Origin: Haloplasma contractile SSD-17B | Lineage (GTDB): Bacteria; Bacillota_I; Bacilli_A; Haloplasmatales; Haloplasmataceae | Assembly (NCBI RefSeq): GCF_000215935.2 | Contig: NZ_AFNU02000002.1 | Location: forward strand, 372,001-436,000 | DNA length: 64,000 nt | Direction of reading: 5' to 3' | Shown: positions 7,164 through 46,851 of the stretch, piece after piece | How the letters are laid out: every line of letters starts with the position of its first letter | Numbering within the stretch: the stretch's first letter is position 1 | Position numbers and translations under genes: made by a program | The notes under the pieces: generated by a model | What the model was told of the DNA's origin: nothing | Seen by the model: only the letters and a program-made list of their open reading frames with translations | Databases searched by the model: none

Positions 7164-7172
7164 GTGATTATA

Positions 7173-8159
7173 ATGAATAATGAACTTCGATTTAAAATAA
7201 TTACAGAAGGTTTAAAAAATGGAATCAGTGTTACGTGTAGAAGACACGACATTTCTAGAACTATTTTTTATCGCTGGTTAAAAAGATATAAAGCAATGGG
7301 AATTGAGGGTTTAAATGATACTAAGAAGACATTTGTGCCTAAAAATAAGACAAATGAGGAGATAGAACGTGTGATCCTAAACCTCATTAGGAAATATCCC
7401 CATTACGGACCGAGAGCTATAAACTATCTCTTAGAAGATCTGGGATATAATATTAGCGAATCAGCGGTTTTCAATGTAATGAAAAGGAATAATCTAACTA
7501 ATAGGAAAAATAGGATTCAATTCCTAAAAGATAATGAAAAGGAAATTAACAATTCGCTTCCTTCTCTGACAGAACTTAAGAGCGGAGAATGTTGGATATT
7601 TTGGATTACGGACTATGGCTACTTTAAAAACATAGGCACTCTTTATGAATATACCCTATTTGATTTAAAGAGTAGAATAGCATGCACAAGATTATATAAT
7701 GATGTATCATTTGATAACTTCGAAGATCTCTTAACTGCTATCGCAATGCCTGTAGCTTCAACCATAAATTTTAAACCAAATTACTTATGCTTTTATAAAC
7801 AAGTTAATCTATTAAAAAAATCGATTAACCATTTTAAATCAAAGATAGGAAAAATTATTCAAGATAATGGATTGCATGTTAAACTTCATATTCTTAATTC
7901 AAATGATGAATTAGTGAAAATTAATGATCTAAAAAAACAATATACAAAAGGTTGCTTATCGTTTCTAATGCCTTTACTAAATAAAGATACTTCATTTTCT
8001 GAATTAAAATTAAAGTTTCAAGATTATGTACGAAATTATAATATCAACTATAAAGTACATTATGATCAAGAATTATATTCTCCTGTTGAATACCATAACA
8101 AATTAACTAATACTAATCTAATTTTACCGATCTGTGTATACATAGATCGAAAATATTAA
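7173..8159 (+). CDS. HTH plus integrase-fold protein resembling an IS481-type transposase, probably domesticated
   Basis: 328 residues from the ATG at 7173 (AGGTGA site upstream; an in-frame GTG at 7164 is less likely). Residues about 5-55 form the two-helix HTH seen in IS481/IS3 transposases (ISRTIFYRWLKRYKAMGIEGL); residues 60-115 form a second HTH. The rest follows the rve core: WITDYGY holds the first acid, IIQDNG the second, and the tail RNYNINYKVHYDQ...SPVEYHN matches the usual YN..R.H...TP.EY end. The third catalytic Glu is not where expected. No terminal inverted repeats were found. The stop codon overlaps the ribosome binding site of the flavoprotein gene, so the pair is translated together; that suggests a host function such as DNA-binding regulation. 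Confidence 0.65.
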   Translation: MNNELRFKIITEGLKNGISVTCRRHDISRTIFYRWLKRYKAMGIEGLNDTKKTFVPKNKTNEEIERVILNLIRKYPHYGPRAINYLLEDLGYNISESAVFNVMKRNNLTNRKNRIQFLKDNEKEINNSLPSLTELKSGECWIFWITDYGYFKNIGTLYEYTLFDLKSRIACTRLYNDVSFDNFEDLLTAIAMPVASTINFKPNYLCFYKQVNLLKKSINHFKSKIGKIIQDNGLHVKLHILNSNDELVKINDLKKQYTKGCLSFLMPLLNKDTSFSELKLKFQDYVRNYNINYKVHYDQELYSPVEYHNKLTNTNLILPICVYIDRKY

Positions 8160-10021: not shown

Positions 10022-10918
10022 CTAAACATGGAATTTTTTCTTTACATAGTCTAACACACGCTTTTGGTTATTTAAGATAAACATCAAGCTTGCTATCGGA
10101 ATTAAAATGAACAATACATAAAAAGCAAAGTCTAACCTACCTTCTTCAATAATAAACCAATTGAGTAAGGTTTGTAACCCTTGAAGAAAGATACTAAAAG
10201 AAATACATAGTGTTGCAATAATCATGTATTTATTGTAAATATACGTTTTAATGAATGCATACGTGATAAACCCTACGATGAACACAAAGGAGTTTAAAAC
10301 TAAAAGAAAATAATTGTGCATCGCGTCGCCATATGGCCCGATAAAAAGCAATCGTATATAAAGCATCGTAGCGACGAGAATCAGGAAAGCTCTAATAAAT
10401 ACAGAATGGAATAGATTGATGGTTTGAATAAAAATATAAATCAAGCCTAGTGTAATGATAATGTAATAAGACCATGTTATATTCCAACTTAACACATAAT
10501 TAATACTAAGAACATATGCCATCAAGATAAACAAGATGGTACTGGCGATAAAGACAAACGTTTTCTTTTCATTTAGCAAAGTTAAATTTAAAATACTATC
10601 AAATACGATGATCGAAATGATAGGAATCAAACTCCATGTCACAGTTTGAGTCATCGCGTAGTTTATGATCAATAAGGTTATTATTGCGATTAAGAACACA
10701 AGAAACAAAATCAGTGCTGAAATGCCTAATTTATTATATATCATATGACGTCCTTCTTCTTGAATAGTTTCTAGCACAGATTTTTGTCTCTCCTTGACGC
10801 CTTCTCTAGTTAGTTGGTCAAGTAAATCATCAGAAAGAATAATGGTTTCACACAATGGACAAAAGGCATGTCTAGCTTCATCGACTTTAACTCCACATTT
10901 ACTACAATATTTCATCAT
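10022..10918 (-). CDS. Zinc-ribbon multi-span membrane protein (DUF6320-like)
   Basis: 298 residues. The N terminus has a zinc ribbon (CSKCG near residue 5 and CPLCE near residue 20), then an amphipathic linker and about eight transmembrane segments from residue 60 to the end. The ATG overlaps the stop of the upstream acyltransferase-like gene (GGAGGAAGATGATG), and its ribosome binding site lies inside that gene, so the two are translationally coupled. I recall this pair as an acyltransferase/condensation-like protein with a DUF6320 protein in Bacillota. A role in making or moving a membrane lipid or ester product is inference only. Confidence 0.65.
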   Translation of the reverse strand: MMKYCSKCGVKVDEARHAFCPLCETIILSDDLLDQLTREGVKERQKSVLETIQEEGRHMIYNKLGISALILFLVFLIAIITLLIINYAMTQTVTWSLIPIISIIVFDSILNLTLLNEKKTFVFIASTILFILMAYVLSINYVLSWNITWSYYIIITLGLIYIFIQTINLFHSVFIRAFLILVATMLYIRLLFIGPYGDAMHNYFLLVLNSFVFIVGFITYAFIKTYIYNKYMIIATLCISFSIFLQGLQTLLNWFIIEEGRLDFAFYVLFILIPIASLMFILNNQKRVLDYVKKKFHV

Positions 10919-12192
10919 CTTCCTCCTTGTTTAACGGTCACATCTATGCCCATTTCAACCAGTTTTCTTAAAAACTTGCGCTCTACCTTTGCGTCTTTAA
11001 TGACCCTACCAAAGTTAAGTGTGAGTGTATCTTGATAACCTGTTACAGCGAGATTGCTTTTACTAATTGGGCAAGGTCCTAGAACAAAATGTACTTCTTT
11101 CACCAATTCAGTTAAACCCTTCGGTAAATCTACATTTCCTATATTAGATAAAGCGCCACTAAATAAATCCACACCAATTGCTTTATAGAATATCGGCATC
11201 GTCAGATCCTTTAAAATTCGAGGTAATATCCTTAAAAAAGGTGAAGATTCAGTTTTATAATTTTGAACGATCATTTCAATTAAATGGTCTTGCTTAGTTC
11301 GTTTTCGTATATAAGTTCTAACTTCTTCAATGATGCTTTTTAAGTCCCGATTAGTGGTCGGTTTAACGCCCGGTGTAATATACAGAGTAAAATTCCTTAA
11401 TGATTCACTTGGTAATCGACGGCGTAAATTAATTGGAAGTTGTAGTGCCACCGGCTTGTGTCTTCTCTTTACTTTCACTTGTTCATCTTGAATTTCAAGA
11501 AAAGTTTGTAAATAAAGTGCCGCAAGAAACTCTGTTACTTTGGTATCATATGATTTTGCTAGTTGGTACAAATCCGCAAGCGGTAGTGTGGCGGTTGTAA
11601 CAAAGTACCGATCACTAGATACAATATGCCCTTTAATATGGAACACACGTTGTTCTTTTTCAATTTTAGGTTTGACATGGGGATGATGTTTAGCGATTTG
11701 TCTATAACTATCAACCGCTTCCGCTTCATTAACTGGTTGATGGTAATCTCGATTCATCTCATTAAAATCAACCGGTATCCCTAAAAGTTCCGCATATTTC
11801 GTAACCAAAGTATTAAGAAATGTTAAACAACCTGTCCCATCTGATAATAGATGGTGAAATTCACAAGAAATCGTGTTCTCTGTATACAGCACACGAAATA
11901 AGTAACCATTAGTATCATTGCTGATGATTCGTCTACAGGGTGGGCCTTCATCCTTAAATAGTTTGAGCGGCGCATCCTGATCCTCAAGGTAATACCAAAA
12001 CAATCCCTTCTTTAATTTAACTTTGAAGTAATAAAAGTAATCCATTACTTCATCAAGCGCTCGTTTTAAAACCTCAGGATCAATCGTTTGATTCAAGACA
12101 TGGCTCATCCGAAAAACAGTAGTGATATAATCTGAATCGACATGTGAAAAGATCTTAGCTGCATTATCGAGTTTAAACCATGATTTTCGCAT
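10915..12192 (-). CDS. Condensation-domain-like acyltransferase (alcohol acetyltransferase family)
   Basis: 425 residues. The condensation-superfamily catalytic motif HHxxxDG is present as HHLLSDGTG near residue 115, followed by the structural features of this CoA/thioester-dependent acyltransferase fold (LPINLRRRLP near residue 245, and the GALSNIGNVDLP bridge region near 340). No carrier protein or adenylation domain is present, so this is a stand-alone enzyme, as in alcohol O-acetyltransferases or WS/DGAT relatives, rather than a peptide synthetase. The substrate is unknown. It forms a coupled pair with the zinc-ribbon membrane protein that overlaps its 3' end by 4 nt. Confidence 0.72.
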   Translation of the reverse strand: MRKSWFKLDNAAKIFSHVDSDYITTVFRMSHVLNQTIDPEVLKRALDEVMDYFYYFKVKLKKGLFWYYLEDQDAPLKLFKDEGPPCRRIISNDTNGYLFRVLYTENTISCEFHHLLSDGTGCLTFLNTLVTKYAELLGIPVDFNEMNRDYHQPVNEAEAVDSYRQIAKHHPHVKPKIEKEQRVFHIKGHIVSSDRYFVTTATLPLADLYQLAKSYDTKVTEFLAALYLQTFLEIQDEQVKVKRRHKPVALQLPINLRRRLPSESLRNFTLYITPGVKPTTNRDLKSIIEEVRTYIRKRTKQDHLIEMIVQNYKTESSPFLRILPRILKDLTMPIFYKAIGVDLFSGALSNIGNVDLPKGLTELVKEVHFVLGPCPISKSNLAVTGYQDTLTLNFGRVIKDAKVERKFLRKLVEMGIDVTVKQGGR

Positions 12193-12922: not shown

Positions 12923-15574
12923 TTAATCATTTTTCTCTTGCTCATTAATAAATTCGTATAGTTTCTCTTTTGAGGTAGTCGATATTGATTTGCTCATAGA
13001 ATTTCGATTATTTTTCTGTAATTCCTGCCTAACTCTCTCGTTGACTCTCTCGATGTCGCCCTTCAGTTCCCTAGCAGATAACAAACGGCATCCTCTCCCA
13101 CGAACGATTAGTTGTTCTAATCCATCCGATGTTGCAACTGTAATGTTATATTTTTCATTATGGTCAGATGCAAATTTTTCGATATACTGATCTGCTGTTT
13201 GTGCCTCTTTGGTATATACTAAATGAATATTATTGTAAGTGATGATCTCTTCTCGATTACCCTGAACACGGTAAGCATCAAACACAACAATAATTTTGTA
13301 CTTTCTCATGCCTTGATAATTACTTAGAATGTCTAATAATTTCATTCTAGCAGCTTCCATATTATGTTCCACCAGCTCGTCTAACTCTGGCCAAGCATAA
13401 ATAATATTATATCCATCCACAAGAAGATAATCTTTTTTCGCTACATGTTTACTACTTGTATTTACCTTATTGTAACTTTTATAATGATTTCTGACTGTAT
13501 TTTGTTTTTTCCATTTAGTATCCTTCCCTTGATTTGAATAGAAGGTTTTTTGAAAAATTTTATTAACCTCTTCATCACTAATAAAATGATCTCCTGTAGA
13601 CTTCGATTGATGACGGTATGATTCTTGAGTTTTATTACTTTTTTCTTTAAGAACACTTTCTAAATGCATATAATTCTTTACTTCATCCCATTCAACAATA
13701 AAACCTGAACCCTGTGTGCAAAAAACTGAACTAGAGGTATTTCCAATGTCACTTGTCGGATCATATCCAATTTCTTCAATTATTTGATCACTATTATGAC
13801 ACGGTTCATATCCTTTCATGTTGTAAAACAATCTGCCGTAACCTTTGGTATAAGCCATTACCTCTTTTTGATAATTTCTCATATTCCTTACAGGGGCACT
13901 CCCCTCAACAACTACTCGATCACAATCTGTTTCTGCAATCTCACAAGCACCACCCATTTGACTTATATCAGTCATAGCTCTTCCTACCATATTTTCGGGT
14001 ATTTCTAAACTGAATGAATAGTAGGGTTCTAGTAAAACTGATTTGGCCTCCATCAAGCCTTGTCTTACGGCACGCCAAGTAGCCTCTCTGAAGTCACCAC
14101 CTTCTGTATGCTTATTGTGTGCCTTTCCAGAGACTAATGTAATTCGCATATCAGTAATCCCTGAACCCGTTAAAACACCTTTATGTACTTTTTCTTCAAG
14201 ATGTTGCAAGACAAGCCTTTGAAAGTTACCACTGAGTATATCCTCACTACATTTATTACCAAAGACTAATCCACTTCCAGGTTCGCCTGGCTCAAGCAAA
14301 AGGTGGACCTCCGCATAATGTCTTAATGGTTCAAAATGCCCCACTCCCTCAACTATGCTTGCAATTGTTTCTTTATAGATAATCCCACCATCATCAAACT
14401 CTACAAAAACACCAAATCGACTTTGAATCATACTTTGCAGAATTTCAAGCTGAATTTCTCCCATGATTCGCACCTGTATCTCTTGTAGTTTTTCATCCCA
14501 TACAATACGAAGTTCTGGCTCCTCTTCTTCGATTTCACGTAGTTTCTTTATCATAACCCTATAGTCACAACCCTCTGGAAGGATCATCCTGTAAGAAAGT
14601 ACTGGTTCAAGTACTGGTTCATAAGATGATTTCTCAATTCCAAAACCTTCTCCCGGCATAGCCATGCTAAGTCCAGTCACAGCACATACAGAACCTGCTT
14701 CACACTCACTGACTACTTCAAATTTTTCTCCTGAATAGATCCTAATCTGATTGACTTTTTCTTCCCAGTCGTCAGATTTCAAGATATCCTTTACATTTAG
14801 CTTGCCACCGGTGATTTTAATGTGAGTCAAACGATTTCCATTTTCATCTCTTGTTATTTTAAATACTTTTGCTCCGAAATCATCAGAATAAGTTGGCGGT
14901 ATGATATAGTCAGACATCCCCTGCATCATGTTCTCAACACCGTCTAACTTTAAAGCAGAACCGAAAAAACAAGGAAATACCTTTCTCTCTTTAACTAACT
15001 TTTTAATATCATTTTCTTCAATTTGTCCTGTATCAATAAACGATTCCATTATACGTTCATCACACACAGCGATTTCTTCATTAAAGACTTCCGTTTTATC
15101 CTGTCCAAATTCAATACATCCATCACTTAGTTGATCTTTCAGTTCATTGATTAAACTTTTTTTATCGGTTCCAACTTGATCCATCTTGTTTATAAAAATA
15201 AAAACAGGAACTTTATACATTTTTAAGAGCATCCATAAAGTCTTCGTGTGCCCCTGAATACCATCTGCCCCACTAATAACAAGGATTGCATAATCTAAGA
15301 CTCGCATTGTTCTTTCCATTTCAGCAGAAAAATCCACATGCCCTGGTGTATCCAGTAAAGTCATTTGAATCGCGCCTATATCAACTATAGCCTGTTTAGA
15401 GAATATAGTTATGCCTCTTTCCTTTTCTAACTCATAGGTATCTAAGTAAGCATCCATTTTATCTACGCGTCCAAGTTTTCTAATTTTACCACTCATATAC
15501 AGTAATGCCTCTGATAAGGTGGTTTTGCCAGCATCCACATGAGCCAATATTCCAATAACTACTTTTTTCATCAT
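12923..15574 (-). CDS. Tet(M)-like ribosomal GTPase fused to a Rae1/YacP-type NYN ribonuclease domain
   Basis: 883 residues, about 240 longer than Tet(M). Residues 1-650 follow the ribosomal protection GTPase plan: G1 AHVDAGKTT, switch region RGITIFSKQ, G3 DTPGH, G4 NKMD, then EF-G domains II-V with LLEPYYSFSLEIP in domain IV. A charged linker covers 650-710. Residues 713-855 form a NYN domain (YLLVDGYNIIYAWPEL, VVFDAYRVQGN, TADQYIE, VATSDG), the family of YacP/Rae1, which cuts mRNA in the ribosomal A site in Bacillus. Both halves act at the same ribosomal site, so a machine that docks on stalled ribosomes and cleaves mRNA is a fair inference. Drug resistance is not shown. The gene stands alone. 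Confidence 0.85.
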   Translation of the reverse strand: MMKKVVIGILAHVDAGKTTLSEALLYMSGKIRKLGRVDKMDAYLDTYELEKERGITIFSKQAIVDIGAIQMTLLDTPGHVDFSAEMERTMRVLDYAILVISGADGIQGHTKTLWMLLKMYKVPVFIFINKMDQVGTDKKSLINELKDQLSDGCIEFGQDKTEVFNEEIAVCDERIMESFIDTGQIEENDIKKLVKERKVFPCFFGSALKLDGVENMMQGMSDYIIPPTYSDDFGAKVFKITRDENGNRLTHIKITGGKLNVKDILKSDDWEEKVNQIRIYSGEKFEVVSECEAGSVCAVTGLSMAMPGEGFGIEKSSYEPVLEPVLSYRMILPEGCDYRVMIKKLREIEEEEPELRIVWDEKLQEIQVRIMGEIQLEILQSMIQSRFGVFVEFDDGGIIYKETIASIVEGVGHFEPLRHYAEVHLLLEPGEPGSGLVFGNKCSEDILSGNFQRLVLQHLEEKVHKGVLTGSGITDMRITLVSGKAHNKHTEGGDFREATWRAVRQGLMEAKSVLLEPYYSFSLEIPENMVGRAMTDISQMGGACEIAETDCDRVVVEGSAPVRNMRNYQKEVMAYTKGYGRLFYNMKGYEPCHNSDQIIEEIGYDPTSDIGNTSSSVFCTQGSGFIVEWDEVKNYMHLESVLKEKSNKTQESYRHQSKSTGDHFISDEEVNKIFQKTFYSNQGKDTKWKKQNTVRNHYKSYNKVNTSSKHVAKKDYLLVDGYNIIYAWPELDELVEHNMEAARMKLLDILSNYQGMRKYKIIVVFDAYRVQGNREEIITYNNIHLVYTKEAQTADQYIEKFASDHNEKYNITVATSDGLEQLIVRGRGCRLLSARELKGDIERVNERVRQELQKNNRNSMSKSISTTSKEKLYEFINEQEKND

Positions 15575-16000: not shown

Positions 16001-16219
16001 TTAGCCTTCATAATAGAATAACCTTTGATCTTTTGTAATTATAATGCGAACCAGTCCATCTTTCATCAAAGAAATTTTAAGTAGAATTCTTGCTGTTCTC
16101 CCATCTCCATCTACAAAGGGATGAATCTTAACAAATTCCCCATGAAGTAAAGTTGCTTTTACAATTTGGTGTAAATCTTTACATTTATTAGCCACTTCTT
16201 TTAGACTCTTATAATCCAT
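16001..16219 (-). CDS. Fic-domain fragment
   Basis: 72 residues carrying a Fic core motif, HPFVDGDGRTAR near residues 33-44. Fic enzymes transfer AMP or other groups to hydroxyl side chains, with the His as base. Complete Fic proteins are 200 residues or more; here most of the N-terminal helices are absent and the upstream DNA is not coding in this frame. The usual DGNGR reads DGDGR, which changes the Asn of the anion-binding loop. It is most likely a truncated leftover. It still has a good terminator. Confidence 0.6.
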   Translation of the reverse strand: MDYKSLKEVANKCKDLHQIVKATLLHGEFVKIHPFVDGDGRTARILLKISLMKDGLVRIIITKDQRLFYYEG

Positions 16220-16482: not shown

Positions 16483-19400
16483 TTATGGCTTAATCTGATT
16501 TAAAATTGAAGGATCTTTAATTTTATGGTCATTTGCTAATAATAGGACTTTCGATAAGATTTCCGATGTTTTTGGATCATCATCCATGTAAGGCAGGAAT
16601 AGTTGTCCTCGATGGCTTGAATGTACAGGCAAGATATGAATTGCAGCTTTGGCTTGTCTATGGACAATTGCACTCCCTAAATGAACGGTATATTCACCTA
16701 ATTCACCTTTAACATGCGCATGGGATCCAGTTATTTCGACATTATTTACTTTAAATAATCGAAGTGATTCTCTAATAATTGCTTTACGCATTTCAATCGT
16801 TGATAATGTTGCTTCAGGATCAACTCCGCCTACATGAGCGACACTCACGACTAAATCAAGATCTCGCATGACTTCAGAAAAGATCACTTTTGAAATTTCT
16901 GTTAGCTTAATTGGTTGAGTCGTTTTACGATCGACAAACTCAATCTCTTCTATTGTAGGGGCTTCTATATCAGCAGGTGAAAACCAATCCGCGTAGGCAT
17001 AAAGGTTTACGCGTATATTTTCATTATAAAATACTTTTTGAAGTCCTTCTTGGTGATTTGCCGTCCATAATCGATTTTTAAGTAATGCTAATGCTTTATT
17101 CGGTTGAACTTGGTGACCTGCATATCGTCTGGACACTGTTTGTTCTTCAAGTTCATCCTCTGTTAACGTATAAAGTTCTCTAAAAATTTGTTTAAATGGT
17201 TGTACAATTTTTGCTTCATATAAATAACTTTGGAATTTCTCCCACTCCCCACTTTCAAATAAATCTACCGGATGGGCAATCACGAATTCATTATCTTTAC
17301 TTGTCTTAACCTTTGTTCCTAAACAATCTAGTGATGTATCCTTTTGATAAAAGCCTAAATACCCGTTTACTTTAAACACGAGGTTTTTAATTAATGGAAA
17401 GAGAACTGGATTGCGTGATAAATTCAGTAACTCTTGACCACTAAATTTTATTTGGTTCTCCATAGATGTTTCAAGTGTATGCTTCGCACGGTTGAACTGA
17501 TCCTTCAAGGACTTTTGTATAGTTTTTAGCGCTTTTACTTCATCATTTTTATTCAGTTTACGAGGAACAGATTTTAGAGTTTTACCTGATTTCTCAATAT
17601 GAATGGTTGCCATACCAGTACCATCAACATCCAATTGCAATGTATAATCATCGATTGTCATTGGATTAAAGTATTTTTTTAGATCATCAAACTTCTCGGT
17701 TTCCATATTCCATATTAGACGATTGACATCATTGTACCCTGCATTACGCGCTAAGTTTTGAAGCGCAATATTCACAACTTTTGCTTCGCTCTCTCGCCTT
17801 TGTGCTCCGAACTGTTTACTTTCTTTTAAAAACTCCTGTAGAAATTCATAACGTTTAAGTGTATCGCCTTGTAATGGAATTAGACCATAACATAGTACAT
17901 GATCTTTATTACGTTTTTGCTTAATGGAGGTTTCTATTGTTTTCAAATCGAGTTTTCCTAATACTGCATCTGCAAATAGTTGAGAACGTCTATGATTTGC
18001 ACCACCTGATATATACTTAGCACATTTATAGACCGAATTAAAACGACTCTCACCTAATTCTCGATAAGCCTCATTAAACCAATTAATATCAAATGCACCA
18101 TCATTGAAATCTTTCGGTGAAATATCCGAGTATCGTGCAACCATTGTTTCTTTTTCATCAGAAAAGTCTTCATTTATATGCGCATGAAAGTACCAAACAG
18201 CCGTATTTAAGCCTTCCCACCCTATATAAGACTCAATTACATTAACCCATTGAGGTGCATACATTGCAGCTTCAAGGAGACGTGTATGACTAATCTTTTT
18301 ATTTTTAATTAAGTCTTTTAGTTTTTCAGCATTATCTTCTTTACCAGGGAAACACTGTTTTAATAAATAACTAAATAAATCTTTTTTAGAAGCATCCATG
18401 CTTGTATAAAGGTAACCTCTAGTGAATTTTTCCTTTCCGATCCCCACTAAGATGGCTATAAAATATTCTAGACCTCTAATTGTTGTTAAATTCGTTGCAA
18501 GTGGTGTTACTTTTGTCGGTAAATCCCCACGCTTTAACTCAATATCTAAAATACGCTTCTTAACCTCTTCTTCAATCTGATGCATTACAGGGTATTGATG
18601 AATTGCTCTATAATCTATGTGCCTCTCCGTAAAAAGCGCATATATTGACTTTTGTCGATGCGGTCTATCCATTAGTTCCTTATAGATTTCATCTTTTGGT
18701 ATTGCTCCCAATTCATAAGCTCTAGCAAAATCAACTAATGCTAATTCAAACTCAGCAAATTGAATTCTTTTATAATAGTGATAACAAATGAAAAAGTAAT
18801 CTTTGAACGATGAATCATCATATATACTTGTTTTCATGCTTTGAATCCAGTAGGTAATGTCTGAAACAAAGAGGTTACTAGCTCTGTTAAGATACCCATA
18901 ATATGATTGAACTTCTTCAAGCGCAATTAAGTTGTCTTTAATACTTTTTTGTATATAAAGTGAAGCCTCTCTGCTTAGACTAAATACTTCTTCCTTTGGG
19001 TATTCCTTTAGTAATGCTTCTAATACCGTTCGAATATGCTCTTTATACTCAATGTCCTTGACGAAGTTTTGCATATGTTCGAGACGCTTTGCCGGGTAGA
19101 TTTTATCTAACCACTTTTTAAATTCAGGATCATATCCATTGTATGGCAGATGACGGTAGTAAAATAACATCTCTAATAATGTCTTAACAGGAATTATATT
19201 TGTTTCAAAATAAGACTTGAAAACATCATTAAGTGGTAGATCACCTAAAACAATCTCCTGATGATGTTTATAATTGATTGGTTCTATTCTATTACTTGAA
19301 CCTAAAATAACTTTGTGTTTAGATCCATCAAAGTATTCTGTTGTATATTCGTAGTTACGGTTTTGATCAATGATATCATAAAGTTCTAGAAATAATCTTT

Positions 19401-21348
19401 TAATTTCATCTAGATCCGTATTAAAAATGTCATCAAAATTAAACATCTCTCGGTCTTCAAAGCGTGGAATCTCAACTTTAGCATTTGGGTCATACAGTCC
19501 AAACCCATTTTCACTACTGTATTCAATCACTTCTTGATCGATTAAATTATTGATTAAAACCTTCTCTTTTTCAGTTGGTTGTTCTATTTTTTCAATATAA
19601 TTCTGATGGTTAAAATCAGGTTGATATTTTTTAGCTTTTAGAATCATATCAAGAGCTGCCAAACGTTTATTTTCATTCTTGCTTACTACTAGCCGTGAAA
19701 GCGTAGCGTTTAGGTTCTTTTGGGATTGTTTTGATAACACACGAATAAGCAACGTACGTATTTCTGGTGATTTAAGTGATAAGAGCCCCTCTAACGATTG
19801 AACCTCATCTTCCTTTAATGATAACGTGGTTACTAAATCTAATGCTTTTTTTCGAACTGTAACGCTTCGATCTTTCAAAAAGTTAAATAAAAACTGGCGT
19901 TGACAATCATTTTTCGGTTTTTCTAAAAAATAATCGACATAAATTTCACGTGTTTCAGGGCTCACTTTATTCATGTATAGATATAAGTCATCGACTAATC
20001 TTTCATGTAATTGGTACCCTGCTAAAAACATCATTCTTAACACAATTTTATTCACTGATAATTTAGAATTGATCCATTTAAATCCACTATCTGTGAACTT
20101 CAATTCTTTTTCAGGTAAGGTTTCAATTCGTTCTTTTAATTGATTATAGAGTTGATGACGCTCTGCTTGCTCTTTTGGTATAATACCAAGTCTTTTGTAA
20201 ATTGGAAAAGAATGAATTAGTTGATAAGCCGTTTCGACTGGGTAAATATTCTCGATTACCCAATTAAATACTTCAAGGTTTTCATCTTTTAAAAACTTTA
20301 TAGCTTGTTGGTATTGAAATGCTACATGGCCGGTTTGTGATAAAAAATATAATAGTACTTTTTTCTTATACTGTTTAGAACCGTTCATAAATTCAGTTAT
20401 GTGTTGTGAAGTTAAACTCAGATTTCTAACACCAATAGACCATAGAGCAATATAGATATTCATTTTGTTAGAACCTTCTAACTGTAGGTTAATGCACTCT
20501 GTATTTTCTAAACTGTCTAAACACATTTCAAACGTCGTTTTTATTACTTTAGGCCTTTCTACCTCTAATCCTAGACCAGTCCAAACACTCAATGCACGTA
20601 CAACTGAACTATACCGGTATAAATTGTTATTTACAATCACCTTTAACATATAGATAAATCCTTCTATAGTTGCCTCATCAATACTCTCAACAATACTCTG
20701 TCGAAGTCCCTCTTGTAATCTAGCCGCTAGCAATAAATCACCAACTTTTTTATAATTCGCTTTTTGATGGCTTCTTAAAAGACCTTTAATAACCACGGAT
20801 GACAATAGGACATGATTGTTCTCTGAATAAATCATTTCATCAATCGTATTAATAATTGATTGATTATTTTGATCAAGTTCAAAAGCAATTAAGTCAGGTA
20901 TGACACGATTAATGCTGAAGTGTTCTTTATTTTCTTGTAAATACGTTTCAAGTGTATACCCCTCTTTAACAAACTCTAGTAAACTGAGTAACTTTCTTAA
21001 ATTCGGCTCTAGATAACACTCAGTTTGTTCTTTCATTCGAAAAGAACGTCGATTATATCCGGTTGAATACGGATAATTTGTCGATTGGTCCCATATAACT
21101 TTAAACTTCTCAGCTAAATTAGAACCTAGCAATTTTACCAATACTTTATAATCTTTACCCGAAAACACATCTGTGATATCAAACTGAGACGAATAATCCC
21201 ATAGATAATCCTTTAATGTTTGTAATGTTTTTTGTTGTTCATGGTACGTTACAGTCGCATAGTCTAATATTAAAAGCATTAGTTTCTTTGTTCTTCCAAT
21301 CGATACATTTGCTTTTGTATATAATTGATCATAAAATGTATTAGGCAT
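16483..21348 (-). CDS. Giant DUF4132-type protein
   Basis: About 1620 residues from the ATG at 21348; the frame opens at 21369, but a G9 run there acts as the ribosome binding site, 7 nt before the ATG. The protein is soluble and helical. Residues 400-620 look like HEAT-type repeats (LLSLKSPEIRTLLIRVLSKQ). The last 500 residues match the DUF4132 family (ALQNLARNAGYNDVNRLIW, LQLDVDGTGMATI, LPVHSSHRGQLFLPYMDDD). In Gram-negatives such proteins were linked to molybdate (MolR) or WGR proteins, but the function is unproven. It is preceded by a small partner gene (21363-21782) whose stop lies 12 nt before this start, so the two form an operon. Confidence 0.75.
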   Translation of the reverse strand: MPNTFYDQLYTKANVSIGRTKKLMLLILDYATVTYHEQQKTLQTLKDYLWDYSSQFDITDVFSGKDYKVLVKLLGSNLAEKFKVIWDQSTNYPYSTGYNRRSFRMKEQTECYLEPNLRKLLSLLEFVKEGYTLETYLQENKEHFSINRVIPDLIAFELDQNNQSIINTIDEMIYSENNHVLLSSVVIKGLLRSHQKANYKKVGDLLLAARLQEGLRQSIVESIDEATIEGFIYMLKVIVNNNLYRYSSVVRALSVWTGLGLEVERPKVIKTTFEMCLDSLENTECINLQLEGSNKMNIYIALWSIGVRNLSLTSQHITEFMNGSKQYKKKVLLYFLSQTGHVAFQYQQAIKFLKDENLEVFNWVIENIYPVETAYQLIHSFPIYKRLGIIPKEQAERHQLYNQLKERIETLPEKELKFTDSGFKWINSKLSVNKIVLRMMFLAGYQLHERLVDDLYLYMNKVSPETREIYVDYFLEKPKNDCQRQFLFNFLKDRSVTVRKKALDLVTTLSLKEDEVQSLEGLLSLKSPEIRTLLIRVLSKQSQKNLNATLSRLVVSKNENKRLAALDMILKAKKYQPDFNHQNYIEKIEQPTEKEKVLINNLIDQEVIEYSSENGFGLYDPNAKVEIPRFEDREMFNFDDIFNTDLDEIKRLFLELYDIIDQNRNYEYTTEYFDGSKHKVILGSSNRIEPINYKHHQEIVLGDLPLNDVFKSYFETNIIPVKTLLEMLFYYRHLPYNGYDPEFKKWLDKIYPAKRLEHMQNFVKDIEYKEHIRTVLEALLKEYPKEEVFSLSREASLYIQKSIKDNLIALEEVQSYYGYLNRASNLFVSDITYWIQSMKTSIYDDSSFKDYFFICYHYYKRIQFAEFELALVDFARAYELGAIPKDEIYKELMDRPHRQKSIYALFTERHIDYRAIHQYPVMHQIEEEVKKRILDIELKRGDLPTKVTPLATNLTTIRGLEYFIAILVGIGKEKFTRGYLYTSMDASKKDLFSYLLKQCFPGKEDNAEKLKDLIKNKKISHTRLLEAAMYAPQWVNVIESYIGWEGLNTAVWYFHAHINEDFSDEKETMVARYSDISPKDFNDGAFDINWFNEAYRELGESRFNSVYKCAKYISGGANHRRSQLFADAVLGKLDLKTIETSIKQKRNKDHVLCYGLIPLQGDTLKRYEFLQEFLKESKQFGAQRRESEAKVVNIALQNLARNAGYNDVNRLIWNMETEKFDDLKKYFNPMTIDDYTLQLDVDGTGMATIHIEKSGKTLKSVPRKLNKNDEVKALKTIQKSLKDQFNRAKHTLETSMENQIKFSGQELLNLSRNPVLFPLIKNLVFKVNGYLGFYQKDTSLDCLGTKVKTSKDNEFVIAHPVDLFESGEWEKFQSYLYEAKIVQPFKQIFRELYTLTEDELEEQTVSRRYAGHQVQPNKALALLKNRLWTANHQEGLQKVFYNENIRVNLYAYADWFSPADIEAPTIEEIEFVDRKTTQPIKLTEISKVIFSEVMRDLDLVVSVAHVGGVDPEATLSTIEMRKAIIRESLRLFKVNNVEITGSHAHVKGELGEYTVHLGSAIVHRQAKAAIHILPVHSSHRGQLFLPYMDDDPKTSEILSKVLLLANDHKIKDPSILNQIKP

Positions 21349-21362
21349 TATAATCCCCCCCC

Positions 21363-21782
21363 TTACCACATACGCCCAGCGAGCATGGTCAATTTTACAA
21401 ACGTTAATGTGACTCCTTCAGTTAAAGAAATTGGAGCTTCTAATGATTCAATTTCCTCATCTTCTATAAAGACACGGTATAGACCATCCTCAAATGATTG
21501 TAGTGCTTCTTTTATCGTTTTATTTGTGGAAACTTCTTTATTGGTATACTTCGTTCCAAATCCAACTTTACCTACCTGAGCACGTTCATCAATCTCCTCA
21601 CTAGTTAAGTATTGAACACTACTACTGTCTTGCTTTTGTTCATTATAAGTTAGAATATTGGTTGTAATCATTTCACTTAATAACTCTTTCAATGTATCTA
21701 CATCATCACTTATTGTGATCGCTTTTTTAGTTAAAGTACTTTTTTTCTTACCTAATTGTTTAACCGTTACATATACCTTCAT
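21363..21782 (-). CDS. Small partner protein encoded before the DUF4132-type gene
   Basis: 139 residues from the ATG at 21782, chosen because AGGGAGGGG sits just upstream; a start at 21827 is possible but has no such site. The sequence starts with a beta strand-like VYVTVKQLGKK and ends with ISLTEGVTLTFVKLTMLAGRMW. No catalytic motif is seen. It precedes the giant gene by 12 nt and is clearly cotranscribed with it, so a structural or regulatory partner is likely. Not recognised as a named family. Confidence 0.6.
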   Translation of the reverse strand: MKVYVTVKQLGKKKSTLTKKAITISDDVDTLKELLSEMITTNILTYNEQKQDSSSVQYLTSEEIDERAQVGKVGFGTKYTNKEVSTNKTIKEALQSFEDGLYRVFIEDEEIESLEAPISLTEGVTLTFVKLTMLAGRMW

Positions 21783-40539: not shown

Positions 40540-42472
40540 GTCGAGTAGAAACAGCCATCACTGACTGAGGCCCTCACAGAACCGTGCAACATTATTCTTC
40601 TCAGTATTTTCTAATTGAATGTTTGGCTCATGTCCCAAGTGAAACTCCTCTTTTGACTTCTTCGATTAAGTGCTTTAAATAGTCCTTTTAACGTTTCATA
40701 ATAGAACGTTGTAATACTCTTGAAATTATCCGTTATTCCATAATAACGATAATGACCACCTAATCTAAGATTTATCCGTTTAATGAGGTCTTTCAAATTC
40801 ATATGCATGTTTTCTTTAATCCACTTTTTGATTCTCTTTACTTTAACAGTCAATTTCTTCAAGTAAGTTTTCAATTTCACTCTGAACTTGCCGTTTACAC
40901 TTTTACTACAATAGAACGTAAAGCCTAAGAAGTTAAATGTCTCTGGTCTTCTCATTCCTTTTGCTTTTCTATTTGTCTCAGCATATCGACCAAATTCAAT
41001 AATCTTTGTTTTCTCTTCCGCTATCTCAAGGTTGAATTTATTTAACCTTGAGATTAGATTATCGTAAAATCTCATAGCATCATCTTTATATTGGAAGCAA
41101 CACACAAAATCATCTGCATACCGAACAATATATGCTTCACCTCGACTATACTTCTTAACAACTTTTTCAAACCATAAGTCTAATACAAAGTGTAAATATA
41201 TGTTTGAAAGTACCGGCGAAATGAGGCCCCCTTGAGGCTGACCGAAGGGTGTAGTATGAAATTTTCCTTGTTCCATCACTCCTGTTTTTAGAAATTTATT
41301 AATCAAACTAATAAATTGTTTATCGGCAATACGATGTTTGACAAACTCCAGTATCCAGTCATGCTCTACATTGTCAAAGAAACTTTTAATATCAGCATCA
41401 ACCACATAGTTTACTCGCTTTGTTTGAATTGTGTTTCTCAATGCTTTTACTGCCTTGTGACAATTTAAATCTTTTCTAAATCCATATGAAGTTGTGAGAA
41501 ACATCGGTTCATATATAACGTTTAATATTTCAGTCATTACACGTTGAACTAATTTATCTTCATATGCTGGTATATCTAAAGGTCTTTTCTTCTTGGTTCC
41601 TACTTTATAAATGTAAACACGTCGTACCGGAAGGGGTTTTGTCTTTTCATTCTTGACAATAGATTATTTATATTTTCATTTAGTGATGATTGATAATCAA
41701 CTTTACCTACCTTATCGATACCACTTGCTTTAGTTGCATCCATAGAGTGATGACTTGAAGTTAATGTTTCTTTGTTAATATAATGCGTAACATTTTGTAT
41801 TTTATTATGTGGATTACGTTTAACTAGTTCTCTTATTTTAGATAGTTCGTTCATAATGTTGTTCACCTCTTGTGTGCAGTAATCTGAATCAATCTAAAAC
41901 TACAATGTGCTGCCCCCTTCCCTCCGCATGCTTTCACATACATCTACGGTAATATGAGACAGTCAGACTTCCTAAACAATGTTTGCTTGACTCGTTGCTA
42001 TCCTTGTCTTTGCATACAAACATTTATTGTTGTTCCTTTTCTAGAGAGAATACTCTTATACCAATTCACGACTGGTTGCCGTAAGAAATGTTTGATTGTT
42101 TAGGATCTCTCATGTTCCATTATCATAACGGTATCAAACTCGCCAGGTCTTACAACCCCGGGAAAGTTGATTACATCTCACCTTTACGATGTAATCAATG
42201 TTGTCTTCTGATTCTCCAAAACCATCGACCTTTCCAAACTCTGCCTTTCGAGGCTAATAACTTCAGTATACACTTCCGGCTTGAATGTTCCTTTGATTAC
42301 GCTTAAACCTTACATTACTGCTTCGGCGTAGGATCTAAGTGCTAGTTGTTGGTTAGACTTTACTAAGTGGGATTCACACCCACTATATGATAACAGCTTA
42401 CAAATTTAGAGTAATGTTACTCTAAAAGTGAACGAAGAAGCCTAATATGACTTCTTCGTTTACATGACGCAC
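40540..42472 (-). mobile_element. Group II intron copy 1 (defective)
   Basis: Minus-strand intron starting GTGCG at 42472 and ending CGAC at 40540, about 85-90% identical by eye to copy 2. It is broken in two ways: the reverse transcriptase frame is interrupted near 41630 by a small deletion, and domain V is lost (GAACCGTGC at 40594 runs into unrelated sequence instead of the second strand of the stem). It could splice only if helped, and probably not at all because domain V is essential. Confidence 0.85.
40611..41866 (-). pseudogene. Broken group II intron reverse transcriptase
   Basis: Two pieces: 41600-41866 (N-terminal 88 codons, ending in the wrong frame after NNLLSRMKRQ) and 40611-41537 (308 codons with the polymerase motif RYADDFV). 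Compared with the intact gene at 44936-46243, a deletion near 41630 (GGAAGGGGTTTTGTC against GGAACGGGTTTATAGGCTTG) breaks the frame. The C terminus also differs, ending DMSQTFN instead of continuing into the maturase end. Confidence 0.88.
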
Positions 42473-42475
42473 TGG

Positions 42476-42517
42476 AGATGGCCCGTGACGTATGGTATCC
42501 ACGTCCACGGGCCATCT
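42476..42517. repeat. Long hairpin at the 5' exon border of intron copy 1
   Basis: Outer arms AGATGGCCCGT / ACGGGCCATCT (11 bp, perfect) and an inner GACGT/ACGTC stem. The inner part GGACGTGGATA resembles the right end of repeat R. The intron starts 3 nt from the hairpin (TCCA then GTGCG). Group IIC introns insert next to such stem-loops, so this is the likely target structure. Confidence 0.75.
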
Positions 42518-42598
42518 GAAATAATACATTGTATCTCTCTCTATTATGTTGTAAATTTATTACTTTCAAAAAACGATTATAAGTATAATGAAATTAGA

Positions 42599-43105
42599 TT
42601 ATATGAATCTTCTTTTCAAATACAATACTTCAATGAATCCTTCGCATTCAGCTATCGAAAACTTAAAATCATCTCCATATATTTCTTTAAAAATTGAATA
42701 AGTTATTTCGCTAGTTAGTACATTATTTTGCATATTAACTAGAAAAGAATTTATGACTTCTGTGTAATTTATCACACTATAATTAAGGTTTGAAAAACCA
42801 ATCGGATCCCATAATTTAATCATTTTTTCAAGAATAGTATATACCTTGCAACCATCTTCTTGAATACAAAGATAAATTTGAGCTAAGTAATAACACTTTT
42901 TTTTACAGTGCTTAAACATTGTACCCCAGTGTTTAGAAAACACAGAATAAATAATTTCAGCAATTTCATCAGGATTATTGCTGCTTATTTTTTTTACAAT
43001 AAAATCAATATATGTGTCATACTCATCTTCTGGACACCCTGTATATAAGAGCTGTATGGGATCCCACAAATTTATTAGGGCTTTCATTGTTTTTATCTCA
43101 TTCAT
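42599..43105 (-). CDS. Probable immunity protein, two DUF1871-like domains
   Basis: 168 residues from the ATG at 43105. The start lies 1 nt after the toxin stop codon, and its GGAGG site is inside the last toxin codons, so translation is coupled. Two copies of the same motif are visible: INLWDPIQLLYTGCPEDEYD near residue 10 and IKLWDPIGFSNLNYSVINY near residue 105, each followed by a ...IYSVF..H(W/Y)G.. helix. The WDP...PEDEYD pattern is that of DUF1871. It most likely neutralises the toxin domain of the preceding RHS tip. Confidence 0.75.
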   Translation of the reverse strand: MNEIKTMKALINLWDPIQLLYTGCPEDEYDTYIDFIVKKISSNNPDEIAEIIYSVFSKHWGTMFKHCKKKCYYLAQIYLCIQEDGCKVYTILEKMIKLWDPIGFSNLNYSVINYTEVINSFLVNMQNNVLTSEITYSIFKEIYGDDFKFSIAECEGFIEVLYLKRRFI

Positions 43106-43106
43106 A

Positions 43107-44501
43107 CTAACCTCCAAATAAAACTCTTACTATTTCTTGTAGTCCTTCTCTATAATCTTGCCTTCCCATTACAGTAACTACCTGACCACCTTTATCTATT
43201 ATAACAGTAGCTCTAGGAGAAATATAAGCATATCTTTCTCCACCCCATTGTGAGAATGCATGGCCATTTTTAATAGTAGTATAAACCTCTTTTGTAGAAA
43301 CATTCCTTTGAGCCATTCTTTGTCCAGCATGAAGCCTTGATGAGAGCCAGCTAGCAGCTCTCTGCCCTACATAAGTAAATTTACCATTTGCAAATTTATC
43401 ACCTACTTGAATTGCGGTCTTAACCTCATTGGTCGCGTCTCCATCTGCTGTAACTGCACCACCGATAGTTGTTGATGTCCCTCCAGCACCTGCAGTAGTA
43501 GATGCAATTGCAGTTTGAGCGAGATAACCCGCTCCTGCTCCAACTAATGCACCAGCAACAGCACCTCCAGCTACATACCTCCAATCTACTTCTCCGGTAG
43601 TATAATATGAAACGGCCGCACCGGCTATTCCTCCAACAACACCTCCAATGATAGCCCCAGGAATTGCCCAAGCGATATATCCAGTAGGATCATACATCAT
43701 CACTGGATTATTAGAGGCATAAGCATACATATTGTACCCAAGTGGGTCACCTTCTCTACCGATTAATCCATCTGCACTTATAAACCTTCTTATCTCAGGA
43801 TTGTAATATCTGCTTTGTAAATAGTAATATCCAGTTTCCTCATCATATCGGTACCCTCGATATCGATATGAATTTTTTTCTGCAAGATTGACACCTGATG
43901 TATCTTCAACTTTAGTTATATTCCCCCATGCATCATACTCATATGATACCACTTCATTTCCACTAGAATCAAGTAAGTGAGTTATATCTCCTAATATATT
44001 AGTCACATAGAAGTATTCTACGTCATTTAATGTAATACTTATAAGTTTTCCATCAGTATCGTACGTATAGTAAATCGTATCTGTACCATTAGTTTCTGCA
44101 ATCACTTTGTCGCCATCTAAAGTGTATGTAGTTTTTGATCCTCCACCACATGTACTAACATTTTTTTCTGTTCTAATACCTTGATTGTTATATTTATAAG
44201 CAAAGGAATGACAGTAGCCGCTTATATTTGTTAGTTGTCTACCATCCCGAGTATAATTATCTGTATAATAAGATATTCTTGTATCTTCTATTTTTGTTAC
44301 ATTACCATTTGTACCGTAATAATATCTTTCAGTGTAATCAGTTGTTCCGTTTATTCTATATACAATGCTAGAAACTTGATCCTTCCATGTATATCCATAA
44401 TTAAATACCTTTTCTTCATTAGGTGTTGTAGGAAGATTAGAGGTTCTTATATTTTTTATATTTCCATTATGATCATATAAATACGTTTTTGTATAGTTTA
44501 T
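43107..44501 (-). CDS. Orphan RHS tip with a DUF4258-like toxin domain
   Basis: About 465 codons open from a stop at 44502; no full RHS gene lies upstream, so this is a displaced 3' end. It starts inside YD repeats (YTKTYLYDHNGNIKNIRTSN; YYTDNYTRDGRQLTN), passes through the RHS core end (RYRGYRYDEETGYYYLQSRY, RFISADGLIG, and the DPTGY cleavage-type motif near 142 residues from the GTG at 44105), then a Gly/Ala-rich linker and a C-terminal toxin of about 75 residues. The toxin has HAGQRMAQRNVSTKEVYTTI and TVIIDKGGQVVTVMGR, a DUF4258-like pattern related to BECR-fold RNases. Without an N-terminal export part it can act only after recombination with a complete RHS gene, or if read through. Confidence 0.8.
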   Translation of the reverse strand: MNYTKTYLYDHNGNIKNIRTSNLPTTPNEEKVFNYGYTWKDQVSSIVYRINGTTDYTERYYYGTNGNVTKIEDTRISYYTDNYTRDGRQLTNISGYCHSFAYKYNNQGIRTEKNVSTCGGGSKTTYTLDGDKVIAETNGTDTIYYTYDTDGKLISITLNDVEYFYVTNILGDITHLLDSSGNEVVSYEYDAWGNITKVEDTSGVNLAEKNSYRYRGYRYDEETGYYYLQSRYYNPEIRRFISADGLIGREGDPLGYNMYAYASNNPVMMYDPTGYIAWAIPGAIIGGVVGGIAGAAVSYYTTGEVDWRYVAGGAVAGALVGAGAGYLAQTAIASTTAGAGGTSTTIGGAVTADGDATNEVKTAIQVGDKFANGKFTYVGQRAASWLSSRLHAGQRMAQRNVSTKEVYTTIKNGHAFSQWGGERYAYISPRATVIIDKGGQVVTVMGRQDYREGLQEIVRVLFGG

Positions 44502-44550
44502 TTATAATTATGACATATAACTTAATTTAAATAATATAAATCAGTCGCCA

Positions 44551-44625
44551 CCAACCCGCGTCCAAAATCTGTACTTTATCCTATATTTTATCCAATTCTG
44601 TTAGCATTTTTAATAGCAAATACAA
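44551..44625. repeat. Partial structured repeat R4
   Basis: Left end CCAACCCGCGTCCAAAATC and about 60 nt of R interior (TTTATCCAATTCTGTTAGC...AATAGCAAATACAA), then abrupt change into the sequence that precedes R5. It begins 50 nt upstream of the RHS tip, placing an R end right at the tip's edge. Confidence 0.65.
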
Positions 44626-44680
44626 TTATCATAGGTTCTTATAAGTGTTATAATTTAAAATTATATGAAACAGGCGTAAC

Positions 44681-44846
44681 GAACCCGCGTCCAAAACGAG
44701 CTTTTTTTTAATGTTTCAACCAATTTTTAAAGTATTTTTAATAGAAAACACAAAAAAATCATATGATTCGATGAACAGAATCATATGATTGTCTTATTTT
44801 ACTCTATTTTGTATCTAAATCGCCCAAACGGACGTGGATAATATGG
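44681..44846. repeat. Structured repeat R5, interrupted by intron copy 2
   Basis: Left end CGAACCCGCGTCC (44680-44692) is identical over 13 nt to the ssrA T-arm at 63066-63078. Centre: AATCATATGATTC / GAATCATATGATT hairpin with a T-run. Right end GGACGTGG (44830-44837) can pair with CCGCGTCC (44685-44692), then ATAATATGG runs into the group II intron. Confidence 0.8.
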
Positions 44847-44885
44847 GTCGAGTAGAAACAGCCATCACTGACTGAGACCCCCACA

Positions 44886-44918
44886 GAACCGTGCATGCGC
44901 TACTAACGCACACGGCTC
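44886..44918 (-). ncRNA. Group II intron domain V
   Basis: Read on the minus strand: GAGCCGTGTGCG, a TTAG tetraloop, then TAGCGCATGCACGGTTC, forming the conserved 33-nt hairpin with two-base bulge. This is the catalytic core and confirms the element as a group II intron, not a free-standing reverse transcriptase. Confidence 0.9.
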
Positions 44919-44935
44919 TTCACATTGTATTCAAG

Positions 44936-46243
44936 TTAGTTAAAAACACTTACATGTATCTTGGGTTTTAATAGCTTGTATTCAAAATACTTTATAAACT
45001 TGTCCCAAGTGAAACTCCTCTTTTGACTTCTTCGGTTAAGTGCTTTATATAGTCCTTTTAACGTTTCATAGTAAAACGTTGTAATGCTTTTGAAATTATC
45101 CGTTATTCCATAATATCGATAATGACCACCTAACCTAAGATTTATTCTTTTAATGAGGTCTTTCACGTTCATATGCATGTTTTCTTTAATCCACTTTTTA
45201 ATTATCTTTACTTTAACAGTCAATTTCTTCAAGTAGGTTTTCAATTTAACTCTAAACTTGCCATTTACACTTTTACTACAATAGAACGTAAACCCTAGAA
45301 AGTTAAATGTCTCTGGTCTTTTCATTCCTTTTGCTTTTCTACTTGTTTCAGCATATCGACCAAATTCAATAATCTTTGTTTTCTCTTCCGCTATCTCAAG
45401 GTTGAATTTATTTAACCTTGGGATTAGATTATCGTAAAATCTCATAGCATCATCTTTATATTGGAAGCAACACACAAAATCATCCGCATACCGAACAATA
45501 TATGCTTCACCTCGGCTATTCTTTTTAACAACTTTTTCAAACCATAAGTCTAATACAAAGTGTAAATATATGTTTGAAAGTAACGGCGAAATGAGGCCCC
45601 CTTGAGGCTGACCGAAGGGTGTAGTATGAAATTTTCCTTGTTCCATCACTCCTGCTTTTAGAAACTTATCAATCAAATTAATAAATCGTTTATCAGCAAT
45701 ACGATATTTGACAAACTCTAGTATCCAGTTATGGTCTACATTGTCAAAGAAACCTTTAATATCCGCATCAACCACATAGTTTACTCGCTTTGTTTGAATA
45801 GTGTTTCTCAATGCTTTTACTGCCTTGTGACAATTCAAATCTTTCCTAAAACCATATGATGTGGATAAAAACATCGGTTCATATATAATGTTCAGCATTT
45901 CAGTCATTACACGTTGAACTAATTTATCTTCGTATGCTGGTATACCTAAAGGTCTTTTCTTCTTGGTTCCTACTTTATCAATGTAAACACGTCGTACCGG
46001 AACGGGTTTATAGGCTTGTCTTTTCATTCTTGACAATAGATTATTTATATTATCTTTTAGTGATGATTGATATTCATCTTTACCTACATTATCGATACCA
46101 CTTGCTTTAGTTGCATCCATAGAATGATGACTTGAAGTTAATGTTTCTCTGTTAATATAATGCGTAACATTTTGTATTTTATTATGTGGATTACGTTTAA
46201 CTAGTTCTCTTATTTTAGATAGTTCGTTCATAATGTTGTTCAC
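44936..46243 (-). CDS. ltrA: Group II intron reverse transcriptase/maturase
   Basis: 435 residues. RT0-RT7 blocks are in order: KKRPLGIPAYEDKLVQR, YGFRKDLNCHKAV, DADIKGFFDNV, QGGLISPLLSN, and the active site RYADDFVCCFQ. A maturase/thumb domain follows (NFLGFTFYCSKSV; RINLRLGGHYRYYGITDNF). No HNH endonuclease domain is present, as in class C introns; such proteins prime on the replication fork. The start ATG is preceded by AGAGGTGAACAAC. The gene lies in intron domain IV. Confidence 0.93.
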   Translation of the reverse strand: MNNIMNELSKIRELVKRNPHNKIQNVTHYINRETLTSSHHSMDATKASGIDNVGKDEYQSSLKDNINNLLSRMKRQAYKPVPVRRVYIDKVGTKKKRPLGIPAYEDKLVQRVMTEMLNIIYEPMFLSTSYGFRKDLNCHKAVKALRNTIQTKRVNYVVDADIKGFFDNVDHNWILEFVKYRIADKRFINLIDKFLKAGVMEQGKFHTTPFGQPQGGLISPLLSNIYLHFVLDLWFEKVVKKNSRGEAYIVRYADDFVCCFQYKDDAMRFYDNLIPRLNKFNLEIAEEKTKIIEFGRYAETSRKAKGMKRPETFNFLGFTFYCSKSVNGKFRVKLKTYLKKLTVKVKIIKKWIKENMHMNVKDLIKRINLRLGGHYRYYGITDNFKSITTFYYETLKGLYKALNRRSQKRSFTWDKFIKYFEYKLLKPKIHVSVFN

Positions 46244-46851
46244 CTCTTGTGTGCAGTAATCTGAATCAATCTAAAACTACAATGTGCTGCCCCCTTCCCT
46301 CCATATGCTTTCACATACATCTACGGTAATATGAGACAGTCCGACTTCCTAAACAATGTTTGCTAGACTCGTTGCTATCCTTGCCTTTGCATACAAACAT
46401 TTATTGTTGTTCCTTTTCTAGAGAGGATACTCTTATACCAATTCACGACTGGTTGCCGTAAGAAATGTTTGATTGTTTAGGATCTCTCATGTTCCATTAT
46501 CATAACGGTATCAAACTCGCCAGGTCTTACAACCCCGGGAAAGTTGATTACATCTCACCTTTACGATGTAATCAATGTTGTCTTCTGATTCTCCAAAACC
46601 ATCGACCTTTCCAATTTTCGGCCTTTCGAGGCTAACAACTTCAGTATACACTTCCGGCTTGAATGTTCCTTTGATTACGCTTAAACCTAACATTACTGCT
46701 TCGGCTCCAAATCTAAGTACTAGTTGTTGGTTAGACTTTACTAGGTGGGATTCACACCCACTATATGATAACAGCTTACAAATTTAGAGTAATATTACTC
46801 TAAAAGTGAAACGAAGAAGCCTAGTATGACTTCTTCGTTTACATGACGCAC

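Follow-up and report, generated by a model that had tools for sequence, protein, structure and literature searches.

A subfamily of EF-G-superfamily GTPases, distinct from the tetracycline-resistance proteins, has been joined, apparently once, to a Rae1-type NYN nuclease, and the fused gene has spread among Clostridia. On repeated occasions the fusion has replaced separate Rae1, and most of its carriers have no separate rae1/yacP gene. The member described here is encoded by Haloplasma contractile SSD-17B, in a 64,000-nucleotide stretch of DNA that was analysed as a whole (the window). We are somewhat inclined to regard it as the Rae1 of this cell, in which the nuclease has become the C-terminal domain of a translational GTPase (trGTPase) that would dock in the ribosome, and the evidence favours a part in ribosome quality control over one in drug resistance.

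Gene and domain architecture

The minus strand of positions 12923..15574 of the window holds one unbroken open reading frame (ORF) of 883 amino acids, from an ATG at 15574 to a stop at 12923, and the plus strand of the same interval has many stops. The earlier note on this DNA, which gave no strand, had proposed a fusion of a ribosome GTPase with an NYN domain; the single frame and its Pfam domains bear this out. After the EF-G/Tet-type domains G-II-III-IV-V come a C-terminal extension of 45 residues and, beyond a flexible linker, an NYN domain of the YacP/Rae1 type; the parts are as follows.

12923..15574, minus strand: complete trGTPase-NYN fusion gene, 883 amino acids (ORF list, Pfam, AlphaFold2)
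14903..15562, minus strand: G domain, residues 5-224 (Pfam GTP_EFTU, 4.5e-51; motifs AHVDAGKT, DTPGH, NKMD, SALK)
14666..14875, minus strand: domain II, residues 234-303 (Pfam EF-G_D2)
14396..14605, minus strand: domain III, residues 324-393 (Pfam EFG_III)
14042..14383, minus strand: domain IV, residues 398-511 (Pfam EFG_IV; structural alignment with ribosome-bound TetM and EF-G)
14087..14128, minus strand: loop 3 at the tip of domain IV, residues 483-496, GKAHNKHTEGGDFR (alignments; the TetM equivalent is YYSPVSTPADF)
13790..14038, minus strand: domain V, residues 513-595 (Pfam EFG_C)
13655..13789, minus strand: C-terminal extension, residues 596-640, with its last helix at 629-635 (WDEVKNYMH) (alignment, secondary structure of the model)
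13439..13654, minus strand: flexible linker, residues 641-712, with one helix at 667-681 (DEEVNKIFQKTF) (pLDDT)
12950..13426, minus strand: NYN_YacP (Rae1-type) nuclease domain, residues 717-875 (Pfam, 6.6e-53; profile match to PDB 5mq9/5mq8, 2.3e-40)
13124..13417, minus strand: predicted catalytic acids D720, D766, D795 and D817 (invariant in the fused proteins; aligned with B. subtilis Rae1)

Membership of the EF-G/EF2 superfamily is evident from the G1-G5 motifs and domains II-V, by Pfam, motif conservation and fold. We assembled 103 full-length fused proteins, the H. contractile one and 102 others that were recovered, and the core GTPase residues K17, T18, D75-H79, N129, K130 and D132 are invariant in all of them. 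The AlphaFold2 model, built with 62 homologues, has a mean pLDDT of 86.3, which falls below 50 in the linker at residues 646-666 and 678-711, on either side of the helix. Across the 103 proteins the linker is 54-146 residues long (median 74), with a recurrent helix of the DEELxxIFxRTYG type. In comparison with an 82%-identical homologue, dN/dS is 0.136 for the GTPase, 0.142 for the NYN domain and 0.476 for the linker; judged from these ratios, the GTPase and NYN parts are under equal purifying selection. Since the same frame recurs in more than 100 genomes and is under purifying selection, the fused ORF is not a product of chance, and the question that the earlier note had raised, of how widespread the fusion is, can be answered: it defines a conserved family.

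The NYN half is a variant of Rae1

The nuclease half scores 179.5 bits with the Pfam NYN_YacP model (gathering cut-off 24.6), is 44% identical to B. subtilis Rae1 over 129 amino acids, and has no matches in profile searches other than the crystal structures 5mq8 and 5mq9, both of YacP. The family given in the earlier note is thus correct, while its boundaries of 713-855 are not quite: the domain begins near residue 715, and its Pfam match extends to 875. Like B. subtilis Rae1, it has all four NYN/PIN acids and the VDGYN, VFDA, TAD and TSD motifs. The acids are kept in 103 of 103 fused proteins, and the loss in most homologues that the earlier note had named as fatal to its reading did not occur. 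By these criteria the NYN half is a genuine relative of Rae1.

There are also differences. B. subtilis Rae1 is a separate protein of 170 amino acids whose gene lies between rlmB and sigH and which has a conserved C-terminal tail (FEKWRRG), whereas the nuclease of the fusion is joined to a GTPase, encoded elsewhere and tailless. In all 14 separate Rae1 proteins compared, which come from Bacilli and Clostridia, the C-terminus reads [FL]E.[WI]R[RK]; the fused enzymes have lost this ending, with the loose pattern matched in 3 of 103. The substitution R166P, within the tail, inactivates B. subtilis Rae1 (PMC6613710). Because the tail is absent, the sequences identify the fusion as a Rae1 variant and not as standard Rae1. 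We read the tail as probably serving ribosome contact or targeting, and as having become dispensable once the GTPase took over this role.

Displacement of separate Rae1

In B. subtilis, Listeria, Staphylococcus and C. difficile, yacP/rae1 lies after rlmB and before sigH or another sigma gene. In H. contractile this locus is intact without yacP: the order is cysS-mrnC-rlmB-sigma-rpmG-secE-nusG-rplK, with rlmB and the sigma gene only about 30 bp apart, and the fusion gene is not located there. yacP is likewise missing after rlmB in 12 further carriers (three plus nine), in surroundings that are otherwise conserved (cysS-mrnC-rlmB-sigH-tuf or rpmG-nusG), and it is present after rlmB in four genomes with both forms (G530, G574, G640 and G504). 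One of these, G504, has a fused gene with a broken NYN frame (L228:2727-7301, minus strand) along with its YacP match at the ancestral place.

No second YacP above the cut-off was found in the H. contractile genome or in any of 17 named carriers. For H. contractile itself we rejected this absence as proof of replacement, as it is weak evidence in a class most of which lacks YacP. In a sample of 296 genomes drawn evenly from this class, and disregarding matches below the cut-off (G016, G029, G069), 28 have a YacP domain: 26 in frames of 823-1109 amino acids, one in a 615-residue variant and one in a split gene, with no ordinary separate YacP among these 28. In the class of Haloplasma, the fusion may therefore have been gained after an older loss of YacP.

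Because separate YacP is missing almost everywhere in that class, we turned to the Clostridiales for the case for replacement. There, 134 of 137 non-carriers have a separate YacP; of the 10 carriers, 3 or 4 do (Fisher p 5e-8 to 1e-6, with kinship not accounted for), and those that lack it are found at no fewer than four positions in the tree.

Distribution and the unfused sister subfamily

A scan of named genomes yielded at least 594 encoded relatives; the 80 that were kept come from Lachnospiraceae, Clostridium punense, Desulfosporosinus, Fusibacter, Anaerovorax and others. In a set of 147 Clostridiales genomes, 74 have the GTPase family, fused in 10 and in 64 within frames that end past the C-terminal extension. 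Setting aside G534, which is outside the clade, and G600, which looks broken, about 62 unfused cases are left, and all of these genomes have a YacP match elsewhere. The GTPase subfamily is also found without NYN in two genomes that have no YacP at all.

These unfused proteins of Clostridium and relatives, named "translation factor GTPase family protein", share with the fusion the signatures GxGHxE..HYAEVH and KHTxGGDF and the extension GYDP..D..N..GSIFC..GAGF.V.WDEV..YMH, but stop after the extension, with no linker or NYN domain. As both forms have it, the extension belongs to the GTPase. The tree places the unfused Clostridium proteins as sister (support 96/93) to a single fused clade (100/100), a topology that suggests one fusion event.

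A few members depart from the standard form. A copy on a megaplasmid of Ligilactobacillus salivarius (L171:7986-9920, plus strand), adjoining rpsN, has no NYN domain; given its place inside the fused clade, the domain was probably lost. Also nested in the fused clade is a locus where the GTPase (684 amino acids) and NYN (146 amino acids) are two genes with a GTGA overlap (L153:4027-6518, plus strand, genome G249). A natural 594-residue variant (L067:9843-11627, minus strand) consists of G-II-III and NYN with domains IV-V gone and all motifs intact; it comes from a single metagenome-type assembly, in which an assembly fault is possible. Given the variant without domains IV-V and the split gene, the link seen in the fusion is not absolute.

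A model for action on stalled ribosomes

In EF-G and TetM, domain IV enters the ribosomal A site. Because Rae1 and domain IV of TetM and EF-G all use the A site, the most likely function of the fusion is to deliver Rae1 to ribosomes that have stalled or paused, and the GTP-driven delivery of a nuclease to stalled ribosomes put forward in the earlier note is plausible. A role in ribosome rescue, as suggested there, or in mRNA decay fits the conserved active sites, the kinship with Rae1, the usual status of the fusion as the only YacP in the genome and the lack of linkage to resistance or mobile genes.

We propose that, on a paused or stalled ribosome, the GTPase part occupies the factor/A site, where the tip of domain IV (KHTEGGDF) would target the decoding centre, or else tRNA and mRNA, and not tetracycline. 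The linker of about 70 residues begins just past the C-terminal helix, which in TetM ends near the decoding site, so that the nuclease would stay close to A-site mRNA. Since one A site has no room for both domain IV and NYN, the nuclease would most likely cut the mRNA after domain IV leaves upon GTP hydrolysis, or else in the mRNA entry path. The order we favour is docking, GTP-dependent clearing or resetting of the A site, withdrawal of domain IV, and cleavage by the tethered NYN domain. Cleavage would lead to decay of the message and leave a ribosome on truncated mRNA for rescue by tmRNA, for which A-site cleavage is described as opening the way (PMC12320835). Docking by the GTPase would stand in for the ribosome docking that the C-terminal tail probably provides in separate Rae1.

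In favour of a rebuilt Rae1 are the invariance of the acids and GTPase motifs in the fused proteins, the usual presence of a sole YacP, the missing rlmB-linked yacP, the equal selection on both parts, the lost tail and the fold. Against it, separate Rae1 works without a GTPase. The subfamily also exists without NYN in some 62 Clostridiales genomes and in the two YacP-less genomes, and so has some NYN-independent function; both forms are kept in three or four Clostridiales genomes; and there are the variants without domains IV-V (L067) and with two overlapping genes (L153).

The main alternative, possible although we think it the less probable, is that the GTPase and Rae1 do different work on the ribosome and that fusion couples only their dosage and location, the GTPase cycle not gating cleavage. 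The unfused sister clade, which lives beside separate Rae1 in Clostridiales and thereby suggests that the GTPase works without a tether, is in keeping with this, as are the split gene in G249, the apparent NYN loss in L. salivarius, the long and fast-evolving linker without sign of rigid coupling, and the competition for one A site that would arise between domain IV and NYN. However, splits and losses are very rare in the widely distributed fused clade, as if the covalent link mattered, and this clade has lost the Rae1 tail, as if docking had passed to the GTPase.

A broader idea is more tentative. The hitherto uncharacterised subfamily with the GxGHxE..HYAEVH and KHTxGGDF signatures may be a dedicated stalled-ribosome factor that prepares the A site for Rae1 by moving tRNA and mRNA rather than a drug. 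In Clostridium it would partner a separate Rae1; in Lachnospiraceae and other Clostridia the two would form one GTP-gated polypeptide. Such a system would be a bacterial counterpart, reached by a different route, of eukaryotic GTPase-coupled no-go decay. The fusion, and the unfused counterpart beside separate Rae1 in Clostridium, name a candidate partner factor for Rae1, and with a natural and widespread fusion the question of how Rae1 reaches and chooses ribosomes becomes directly testable.

Relationship to tetracycline-resistance proteins

The fused architecture, a Tet-like trGTPase with a C-terminal YacP-like NYN domain, matches that reported in one sentence of Atkinson 2015 (PMC4342817), which notes NYN on Tet proteins of ten Clostridiales species and suggests an RNase-based resistance mechanism. 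That sentence classes the clostridial "Tet-NYN" proteins as Tet, a resistance variant, and speaks of no Rae1 replacement, separate clade or unfused sister. Our literature search found no other report of the fusion, and the 2018 paper on Rae1 distribution (Condon) may mention it. Subject to the content of that paper, four points are, to our knowledge, new: the identity with the cell's Rae1, the displacement of the gene that adjoins rlmB, the existence of an unfused sister subfamily, and the tailless state of the fused Rae1.

That the protein is a ribosomal protection protein with an added RNase could be argued from the superfamily and domain layout that it has in common with TetM, from TetO and TetM being the closest solved structures to the GTPase half in a profile search, and from the NCBI label "TetM/TetW/TetO/TetS family" on an Agathobacter copy. 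We nevertheless consider this improbable. The best NCBIfam model, tet_protect, gives 420.8 bits, under its curated cut-off of 775, and tet_protect_M_W gives 290.2 bits against a cut-off of 1100. In two maximum-likelihood trees the Tet proteins form their own group (support 100/97 and 100/95), and the fused family with its unfused kin forms a second (100/100 and 100/99). Pro509, which in the TetM structure sits in the drug site and overlaps the drug (PMC7456112), is replaced: the alignments place Lys488-His489 of the fusion at TetM Pro509-Val510. The domain IV tip reads AHNKHTEGGDF as compared with YYSPVSTPADF in TetM, with His486 aligning with, and so retaining, the EF-G tip histidine, and loop 1 is likewise unlike that of TetM (GVGHFEPLRHYAEVHL). 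Furthermore, at least five of the genomes sampled encode true Tet-type proteins alongside the fusion, and no promoter-proximal terminator lies directly before the fusion gene. Together these data argue against the resistance reading of Atkinson 2015. The fusion is placed outside the Tet resistance clade by its sequence, and the description "Tet(M)-like" in the earlier note holds at the level of the superfamily but not in the sense of a drug-expelling protein. The resistance label carried by some fused proteins, which are common in gut Lachnospiraceae, is probably wrong, and this matters for resistome counts.

In structural alignments of the model, the fold of residues 1-630 agrees with ribosome-bound EF-G and TetM. 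Residues 1-608 align with EF-G (9rtu) with a VIA Z of 42.0 and an rmsd of 11.9 over 605 residues, and residues 2-631 with TetM (3j9y, chain residues 1-639) with a Z of 33.0 and an rmsd of 11.3, again over 605; we attribute the high rmsd values to probable interdomain movement. With TetM and TetO the fusion shares the five-domain trGTPase layout and a C-terminal helix past domain V. It differs from them in its clade, in loops 1 and 3 of domain IV, in the lack of Pro509, in a longer conserved C-terminal extension and in the nuclease. With EF-G it shares the fold of residues 1-608 and the tip histidine, but identity is only 25-30%, there is no G' insert of EF-G size, and domain IV has its own signature. 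A separate fusA is encoded in the same genome.

Least probable of the readings is that the GTPase carries an rRNA or tRNA maturation nuclease to assembling ribosomes: such maturation is what NYN domains of the YacP type were originally proposed to carry out (Anantharaman and Aravind 2006, cited in PMC4342817) and the ancestral yacP neighbours rlmB and mrnC act on rRNA, but B. subtilis Rae1 cuts translated mRNA in a ribosome-dependent manner (as cited in PMC10100781 and PMC12320835), and EF-G/Tet-type factors act on 70S ribosomes. Like resistance, it is less likely than separate jobs for the two halves.

Genomic neighbourhood

The earlier note had placed the gene near neither resistance nor mobile genes. 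This is mostly right, and no link was seen, although a transposase-like ORF (7164-8159) lies 4.8 kb away and two group II intron D1-D4 matches with one intron domain match (42145-46754, minus strand) lie at 42-47 kb of the window. A recent mobile-element origin was rejected, as no mobile gene adjoins the fusion; plasmid matches with NYN are mostly chromosome-like replicons with housekeeping genes. Anti-phage defence was also rejected, there being no PADLOC match, as were operon partners: around 103 fused or 12 unfused copies no neighbour recurs, close relatives aside.

Tet-type transcription attenuation was discounted as well. The sole terminator-like site lies at least 376 bp before the start codon, after a Fic-gene remnant, and such sites are no more frequent here than expected by chance for the region. 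This hairpin (15979-15950) and the Fic-domain remnant (16001-16219, minus strand, 72 amino acids) lie between the fusion gene and a large upstream ORF (16483-21369, minus strand), which encodes a 1628-residue protein with DUF5724, DUF4132 and DUF7737 domains. Downstream are two adjacent ORFs of 425 and 298 amino acids (10022-12192, minus strand) with no Pfam match, the first of which appears by eye to be acyltransferase/condensation-like. The window also contains a tmRNA gene (63047-63419, minus strand), 47 kb from the fusion.
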